Below are positions 55,698 to 59,752 of a stretch of 64,000 bases of DNA, one piece after another; within the stretch, counting starts at the first letter, position 1, and every line of letters starts with the position of its first letter. The notes beneath the pieces are model-generated. The model searched no databases and was not told the DNA's origin. It saw nothing but the letters and a program-made list of their open reading frames with translations. The DNA comes from Synechococcus sp. RCC307 (GTDB taxonomy: Bacteria; Cyanobacteriota; Cyanobacteriia; PCC-6307; Cyanobiaceae), in the NCBI GenBank assembly GCA_000063525.1, contig CT978603.1, forward strand, positions 1,855,105 to 1,919,104. The letters run 5' to 3'. The position numbers and the translations under genes were made by a program.

Positions 55698-57182
55698 ATG
55701 ACTGCCACCCGTGAGCGTTTCTTTCTTGAACTCGAGCCTCCAATGGAGGAGCTGCGGGGCAAGCCCCATGTGGTGATCGTTGGTGGTGGCTTTGCCGGCA
55801 TCAAGGCCTGCAAGGCCTTCAAGGGCGCTGATGTGCGCGTCACCCTGATCGACAAGCGCAACTTCAACCTGTTCCAACCGCTGCTCTATCAAGTGGCAAC
55901 TGGCCTGGTCTCCCGCGGCGATGTGGCCACCCCATTGCGCCAATTGGTGGGGGCCCAGCGCAATGTTCAGGTGCTGCTTGGTGAAGTCAGCGAGATCCAA
56001 ACCGAGGCCAAGCAGGTCATCTTCAATGGCAAGGCCATGGCCTATGACCACCTGATCCTGGCCACCGGATCAGGCAGCAGCTTTTTTGGCCACGACGACT
56101 GGCGCGGCATTGCCCCGCCGATGAAGATCCTCGAGCACGCCGAAGAGATTCGCCGACGGCTGCTCATGGCCCTGGAGCAAGCCGAGCAAACCCCCAACGG
56201 CGACGAGCGCGCGTTTCTGCAAACGGTTGTGGTGGTTGGCGGCGGTCCCACCGGCTGCGAAATGGCCGGCGCCATCAACGAGCTGATGCGGCGCTCGATG
56301 GCCAAGGACTTCAACCAACTCGACCCAGGGGCCACACGGATCATGGTGGTGGACCCCGGCGACCGGCTGCTCAAGGCCATGCCGGAAGCCTGCTCTGCAG
56401 CTGCTGCCAAGGAATTGCAAGCCATGGGTGTGGAGCTCTGCTTCCACAGCCGGGTTCAGTCGATCGTGCCCGGTGAAGTGCTGATCACCACCCCCGAGGG
56501 TGAGCGCACAATCAAGGCCGCCAATGTGTTTTGGACTGCTGGTGTGCGCGCCTCGCATCTCGGCAAAAAACTGGCGGAAGCCACTGGCTGTGAAGTGGAC
56601 CGCGGCGGCCGAGTGATGGTGGAACCGGATTTCTCCATCCCCAATCACCCTGAAATCCGGGTGGTGGGCGATCTCTGCAGCTACAAACACACCGCCGACG
56701 GCAAAGCCTTGCCGGGCATGGCCGGTCCAGCGGTGCAAATGGGCGGCTGGGTTGCCAAAGACATTCGCGCCCAACTGGAGGGCCGCAGCCACAAACCCTT
56801 TGCCTGGTTTGACTTCGGCAGCATGGCGGTGTTGGGCCGGCTCGGCGCTGTGGCCGACCTGCGCGGGATCAAGCTGGCGGGCCTGCCGGCCTGGGTTCTG
56901 TGGGCCGTAGCCCACCTGGCCTTCATGCCCGATGAAGAGAATCGCCTCACCCTGCTGGTGAAATGGCTTTGGGCCATCCTCACCAGGCAACGGGGATCGC
57001 TGTTGCTGACCGGGATGCCCAGCCAGCACGTGGGGCTGGAAGGAGGTTCAGCCCCCTTCCCCATGGGCCTGCACAGCGAACCGTCCATCGCCGAAATGGA
57101 CGGGACCATGGGCAAGGCCATGGAGAACTTCCGCGAAGCGGAAAACCCCCAAGCACCCGCCTCAGCTCAACCCAGCAGCTGA
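55698..57182 (+). CDS. Type II NAD(P)H dehydrogenase (NDH-2 family)
   Basis: 494 residues, FAD-linked, one-subunit quinone reductase that does not pump protons. Two Rossmann motifs: FAD site [20 protein letters not shown] (about residue 16) and NAD site [20 protein letters not shown] (about residue 176), plus the second FAD contact [21 protein letters not shown] hydrophobic C-terminal segment ([20 protein letters not shown]) should anchor it to the membrane. Related to Synechocystis ndbA/B/C; which paralogue cannot be told. The 3' end overlaps pyrB by 21 bases. Confidence 0.9.
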
Positions 57183-58235: not shown

Positions 58236-58847
58236 TCAATCTGATCTGGGCCGCAGCGGCACCACCGGCTTGCTGAAACTCGGATGTCCCGCCCACAGCC
58301 AACGCCAGGGCAAATCCAACCCCTGCTTGATGCCAACACGGGCGCTCTCAATCAACACACCTGGTGGCTCGCTCGCTTCGCTCAGCCACAGACCCGTACC
58401 TTCCGCGACCGGTTGAGCGTTGTGGCTCAGATCAATACCGAATCGGCGCGCTAACAAGCCAGGGCCTGCCGCGATCCGCGGCGGCTCCTGGGGCAAAGCG
58501 ATGGCACGCAGCAACACCCCATTGGCCCAGTCATCGCGGCCTGTCACCACATTCACGCAGTGATGGATGCCGTAGGTGAGATAGACGTACCAATGGCCCG
58601 GCGGGCCGAACAAAGTGGCATTGCGTTTGGTGCGGCTGCGGTAGCCGTGGCAGGCGGGCTCCTCTTGGGAATACGCCTCCGTTTCCACCACCACACCCCA
58701 AAGCAGGCTGCCGTCGGCTTGGCGTTTGACCAAGTGGCAGCCGATGAGCTCAGGCCCCACCAGCTCAGCGGGGCGCGCAAAAAAGCTGGAAGAAAGAGCT
58801 CGCACAAGGCCAGAAGCCGCCAGACTGGTCTTACACCCATTCGGCAC
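58236..58847 (-). CDS. DNA-3-methyladenine glycosylase (AAG/MPG family)
   Basis: 203 residues; removes alkylated bases such as 3-methyladenine. Family motifs: [19 protein letters not shown], the catalytic Glu in [19 protein letters not shown], then [20 protein letters not shown] and [12 protein letters not shown]. Start uncertain: GTG 58847 gives the full open frame but leaves eight bases before the divergent 40-residue gene; GTG 58805 ([12 protein letters not shown]) would begin close to the family's usual N terminus and leave room for promoters. Confidence 0.9.
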
Positions 58848-58855
58848 ACCAGCCC

Positions 58856-58978
58856 ATGACCCTGGCCCAGCTGCTGATTCCCTTGGCCATCCTGTTCAGC
58901 GTGTCGCTGGTGTTCTTCGGCATGAGCGGTGGCTACTACGACACCGACGCCTACGACGGCAACGGCACCGCCCACTAA
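58856..58978 (+). CDS. Small membrane protein (40 aa), family not recognised
   Basis: A 40-residue frame with one hydrophobic helix (residues about 4-24, [20 protein letters not shown] at the start) and a short polar tail ending [16 protein letters not shown]. Size and layout match the single-helix subunits of thylakoid complexes (PSI, PSII, cytochrome b6f, NDH-1), but it is none of those that I can recall. Coding is supported by ATG-to-stop fit between tightly packed neighbours, only three bases before the next ATG, and by C/G-ending codons. A role in a membrane complex is only inference. Confidence 0.62.
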
Positions 58979-58981
58979 GCC

Positions 58982-59752
58982 ATGACCACACCCGAAGCGA
59001 TCCGGCTGCAGCTGCGCAGCTGGCCTGAGGTGGAGGCCTACCTGGAGCGCTGCAAAGGCGTGATTGTGCCCCTGGGCTCCACCGAGCAACACGGGCCCAC
59101 CGGAGCGATTGGCACCGATGCCCTGACCGCTGAAGCCGTGGCTTTGGAGGTGGGTCGCCGCAGTGGGGTTCTGGTCACTCCGACTCAAGCCTTTGGCATG
59201 GCTGAGCACCACCTCGGCTTTGCCGGCACCGTGAGCCTGCAGCCCAGCACGCTGCTGGCGGTGCTGCGGGATGTGGTGCTCTCCCTCGCCACCCATGGCT
59301 TTGAGCGGGTCTTTGTGATCAATGGCCATGGCGGCAACATCGCCACCGGGCGGGCCGCCTTTGCGGAGGCCTATGGCGAAGCGCGGCGGCGCCAACTGCC
59401 CGTGGCCCCCAAGCTCCAATGCCGCATGGCGAATTGGTTCATGGCTGGTCCGGTGATGCAAGAAGCCCGCAACCTCTACGGGAACCGTGAAGGGCATCAC
59501 GCCACCCCCAGCGAAATTGCCCTCACCCTGCATTTGGAGCCAAGCCTGCAAGACCTGCAGCGGCCCCTGCCTGAGCCAGCCCCCGCCGGCCCAATCCACG
59601 GCCCCGATGATTTCCGGCGGCGCCACCCCGATGGCCGCATGGGATCTGACCCCTATCTGGCCAAGGCGGATCACGGCGAACGCTTCTTGGACCTGGCTGC
59701 CACGGCGCTCTGCAAGGATCTGGAGCAGTTTCTGGCCAGCGACGCCCCATGA
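58982..59752 (+). CDS. Creatininase family protein (amidohydrolase)
   Basis: 256 residues. Metal-site and catalytic marks of the creatininase family: [20 protein letters not shown] with Glu and His ligands, then [20 protein letters not shown] and [10 protein letters not shown], then [20 protein letters not shown] with a further His/Glu. True creatininase activity is unlikely here; related enzymes act in cofactor pathways (for example mycofactocin, formamidopyrimidine). It follows the 40-residue gene by three bases and overlaps gatC by four. Confidence 0.9.

Follow-up and report, generated by a model that had tools for sequence, protein, structure and literature searches.

In the 64,000-nucleotide stretch of Synechococcus sp. 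RCC307 DNA analysed here (the window), the small gene at positions 58856-58978 is almost certainly ndhP, which encodes the known subunit P of NDH-1L; this identity is established by sequence, and the position and role of the subunit would be carried over by homology. A phmmer search of the encoded peptide against PDB sequences returned nine matches up to E 10, of which only two were significant, 6khi_P (E = 3.8e-7) and 6hum_P (E = 3.6e-6), both representing NdhP of cyanobacterial NDH-1L; the remaining seven were V-type ATP synthase chains (E = 0.68 or worse). Both NdhP alignments start at residue 5 and run through residue 40 to the C-termini of the PDB chains, so that the homology to a characterised NDH-1L subunit includes the C-terminal tail. 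A profile made from an alignment of 17 cyanobacterial copies matched 6khi_P and 6hum_P at E = 1.4e-13 and 3.6e-12, with no PDB match below E = 0.3 apart from the NdhP chains. While the initial annotation had rightly proposed a minor subunit of a photosynthetic or respiratory complex, it knew of no named subunit with such a tail, yet NdhP, as seen in 6khi_P and 6hum_P, has this tail. Scans of the 40-residue peptide against Pfam and NCBIfam gave no match at E 10; the window gene is therefore likely to have been left hypothetical or uncalled, in line with the initial view that it is easily missed, and the identification as NdhP supplies a name where the models of these two collections give none.

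Small size and a single helix are common to many small photosynthetic subunits, and PsbI chains did appear in the profile search (E = 1.8 to 9.9); the gene might thus be thought to encode a small, as yet uncharacterised subunit of a different complex (i.e., a photosystem, cytochrome, or ATP synthase complex) that resembles NdhP by chance. We consider this very unlikely, as the significant PDB matches are to NdhP only and extend over almost the entire peptide with its tail, and as a protein search of the genome with the peptide yielded no second NdhP. A second DNA match in this genome (C1:264203-264237) is contained in a long open frame continuing past the match; because this frame reads through and the protein search reported no match there, it was taken as a chance match.

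The frame assigned to ndhP (Table 1) has 40 codons, an ATG start, and a TAA stop. The highest 19-residue Kyte-Doolittle mean of the peptide is 2.39, beginning at residue 3, and the single membrane helix initially described is therefore sound; with 40 residues and one helix, the peptide falls within what is expected of NdhP (about 40-44 residues and one membrane helix). A promoter scan of positions 58700-59000 detected no site of the sigma-70 type; it gave a single terminator-like site, which is located within ndhP and is likely to be a chance occurrence; an Rfam search over the whole window found nothing beyond three tRNAs.

Table 1. Features of the ndhP region, in window coordinates or protein residues.
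Feature	Position	Strand	Basis or remark
MPG-family DNA-3-methyladenine glycosylase gene	58236..58847	-	PF02245, E 7e-50; start 58847 or 58805; neighbour, outside the system
ndhP	58856..58978	+	PDB sequence matches to NdhP; conservation
Membrane helix of NdhP	residues 3-21 or so		
Conserved tail of NdhP	residues 25-40		predicted to be cytoplasmic
Creatininase-family amidohydrolase gene	58982..59752	+	PF02633, E 1.5e-65; neighbour, not known to belong to the system

The gene is conserved across the family of the window's genome. A search with the peptide against 300 genomes of this family yielded a match at E up to 10 in 269, including 193 of the 197 good genomes (completeness of 90% or more and contamination of 5% or less). 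Matches in one genus (g18) were weak with the peptide, mostly near 1e-3; four of its genomes searched again with the profile gave E-values from 1.0e-8 to 4.9e-10. The 31 genomes without a match to the peptide are mostly incomplete, four being >90% complete; in the 20 of these that were searched again with the profile, no match covering the tail was found (best E = 0.091, positions 7-31). Among 146 genomes of the phylum, the profile matched 67, all belonging to the window's class; one genome of this class was among the misses listed, beside which there were 59 further misses. NdhP is thus present across photosynthetic cyanobacteria (269/300 genomes in the family and 67/146 in the phylum).

We read 30 host loci, i.e., the window's and 29 others representing the best of the 269 matches. 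All 29 other copies remain open up to the same C-terminal AH and the stop codon. A frame of 373 residues on the opposite strand and one of 100 residues on the same strand overlap ndhP, raising the alternative that the intergenic ndhP frame is open by chance or that the true gene here is another frame; since hundreds of genomes conserve the frame, including those in which neighbours and spacers differ, this alternative was already refuted by the family and phylum searches, and we regard its probability as negligible. The 269 family matches and the 29 copies open to the final AH and stop exclude a chance frame, and the initial annotation of a real small gene is borne out.

The pattern of change within the gene points to a constrained tail. 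Relative to the window's copy, 6.2% of tail positions (residues 25-40) differ across the 29 other loci, compared to 51.6% for residues 1-24, and ten tail residues are identical in 30/30 host loci. In Nei-Gojobori comparisons, silent change clearly exceeded non-silent change against L006, L007, L010, and L011 (pS of 0.48 and 0.54 and pN of 0.11 and 0.12 for L006 and L007, respectively). Against most loci outside the genus, silent and non-silent change were about equal, with nearly all non-silent changes located in the helix; the ratio outside the genus is weak evidence, and more weight is given to the contrast between tail and helix. Neither of the two observations named initially as refuting, a frame not kept in related genomes and a surplus of non-silent changes, was made: the frame is conserved, and non-silent change is in no general excess.

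The matches to PF02245 and PF02633 support the initial placement of the gene between a DNA glycosylase and a creatininase gene. As described, 3 bases separate the TAA of ndhP from the creatininase-family ATG, and the two nearest relatives (L004 and L005) likewise have 3 bases at this junction; in most other loci this spacer is longer. The 8-base gap reported on the other side requires translation of the glycosylase from the GTG at 58847; with the in-frame GTG at 58805 (identified by eye) as the start, the gap to ndhP is about 50 bases. In full-length hits from 16 loci outside the genus, the first homologous glycosylase residue is between 6 and 28, mostly 12-18. Among the 29 other loci, some of which are cut by contig ends, a creatininase-family gene is located downstream of ndhP on the same strand in 28, gatC follows the creatininase-family gene in 27, and a divergent glycosylase gene is found upstream of ndhP in 19; the arrangement seen in the window is thus widespread in its family. 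By eye, a short antisense gene seems to be present in the spacer between ndhP and the creatininase-family gene in L008, L010, and L012, and to be missing from L004, L005, and the window's own genome. A 494-residue frame on the forward strand (window positions 55698-57182), about 1.7 kb upstream of ndhP, appeared by eye only to be similar to a type II NADH dehydrogenase.

NdhP is an already described single-helix subunit, and the window gene is of note solely as an annotation gap; given the published work on NdhP, its product is a further instance of a known subunit and not a new kind. In previous studies, NdhP was found to stabilise that end of NDH-1L where NdhD1 and NdhF1 are located and to be required for assembly (PMC4131877, PMC6992706); in T. 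elongatus, it is found in NDH-1L only, where it is physically present and needed for assembly (PMC4131877). It is located at the distal membrane-arm end, adjoining NdhD1, with its C-terminus on the cytoplasmic side, a beta-carotene and lipids are located between NdhP and NdhD1/NdhF1, and NDH-1L is undetectable in an NdhP deletion mutant (PMC4131877, PMC6992706, PMC7021789). Schwarz et al. 2013, as cited in PMC4131877, described the subunit (sml0013) as ubiquitous among cyanobacteria, and its gain has been assigned to the step leading to photosynthetic cyanobacteria that lack thylakoids (PMC12038448).

If position and role are transferred by homology from Thermosynechococcus and Synechocystis, the window's NdhP would cross the thylakoid membrane a single time, its N-terminus facing the lumen and its conserved tail the cytoplasm, and would be located beside NdhD1, near the NdhD1/NdhF1 junction. 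Together with a beta-carotene and lipids, it would help to fasten the end specific to NDH-1L to the membrane arm; in its absence, NDH-1L would not be stably assembled and NDH-1-dependent cyclic electron flow would be reduced. The invariant tail may make the contacts that lock NdhP in place.

The genome also encodes the partners of this subunit. Six antiporter-family genes (PF00361) were found, two of which adjoin each other and encode NdhF1 (best match 6hum_F, E = 3.3e-251) and NdhD1 (6hum_D, E = 1.1e-227), so that both proteins occur in the same genome as ndhP; NdhO is present as well. By eye, the other PF00361 genes comprise one NdhB-like gene, one further ndhD, and one pair that precedes a ChpX/CupB-type CO2-hydration gene (PF10216, E = 2.3e-170); this ndhF/ndhD pair and the CO2-hydration gene are found at about C1:752126-755800 (L035). 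Because the pair lies directly before the ChpX/CupB-type gene, a CO2-uptake form of NDH-1 is likely, and both this form and NDH-1L are likely to be made.

NdhP-like genes also occur in cyanophages. A tblastn search with the window peptide matched 357 of 50,697 phage records, with organism names beginning with Synechococcus (296), Cyanophage (43), Prochlorococcus (10), or Marine (8); the tail-tube protein of T4-like cyanophages, which is found in 467 records with the same four first words, provides a rough yardstick, the two sets being unmatched record by record. In 18 phage regions (L040-L057) read from the 357 records, NdhP was named in two (P-TIM68 and S-SCSM2R), and in five the correct frame was annotated as a gene without a name (L041, L048, L052, L054, and L056); in ten, the NdhP frame had no annotated gene, often with another frame annotated across it, and one record was without annotation (L057). 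Eight of these stretches included gnd and/or zwf (L040, L043, L045, L046, L047, L053, L055, and L056) and six included petE (L040, L044, L045, L049, L050, and L055). An annotated zwf or hypothetical gene starts inside the NdhP frame, in another frame, in S-SM2 (L046:1508-2947), Syn1 (L055:1514-1816), and S-RIM2 (L053:1514-1810); these starts may therefore have been placed too far upstream, or the genes may overlap.

Thirteen phage copies (L040, L044-L047, and L049-L056) carry an insertion between helix and tail, which is absent from all 30 host loci read: three residues in ten copies and two in three, with none in the remaining five. Extra residues follow the final histidine in four or five of the 18. 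A PDB search with a phage copy found NdhP at E = 3.7e-9, and one with an insertion-bearing copy at E = 5.7e-4. Matches to phrog_2173, labelled in PHROGs as being of unknown function, were obtained for all three phage copies scanned and for the window protein (whole length, E = 1.5e-13); based on these matches, this viral family is NdhP, and the identification thus gives it a name. No mention of phrog_2173 by name was found in the literature searched. Phage ndhP has already been inferred from metagenomes (PMC10452541, PMC3877843); the available text of the literature naming ndhP with phage contained no description of its spread or of the insertion before the tail.

We tentatively propose, as a possibility that we hold to be somewhat doubtful as a whole, that marine T4-like cyanophages widely carry a mostly unannotated NdhP of their own, often clustered with gnd, zwf, petE, ptoX, and petF, and that this phage form, often with the insertion of 2-3 residues before the tail, might replace or supplement the host NdhP and thereby shift infected cells towards NDH-1L and cyclic electron flow. 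Of this, the occurrence of NdhP in phages is shown by the present searches; the displacement of the host subunit and its effect are predicted. The identification also suggests, in a form open to experiment, one way in which cyanophages might redirect electron flow in the host.

In T. elongatus (6khi_P and 6hum_P), NdhP has a single helix, as does the window protein, and the tail pattern G(F/Y)YDTDxYxGNGxAH is common to both; NdhP of Synechocystis 6803 (Sml0013) has 40 residues, as does the window peptide (PMC5126843). The helix sequences of these two proteins have diverged from that of the window. A similarity to PnsB4/NDF6 of the chloroplast NDH, a larger protein than the window's NdhP, was weak and not significant (E = 0.16 with a phage copy and E = 1.9 with the host profile); a weak similarity of NdhP to this protein has already been stated in PMC4131877. 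Cyanophage NdhP (phrog_2173) matches the window protein over its whole length and differs from it by the insertion in 13 of the 18 copies read and by the C-terminal extra residues in four or five.
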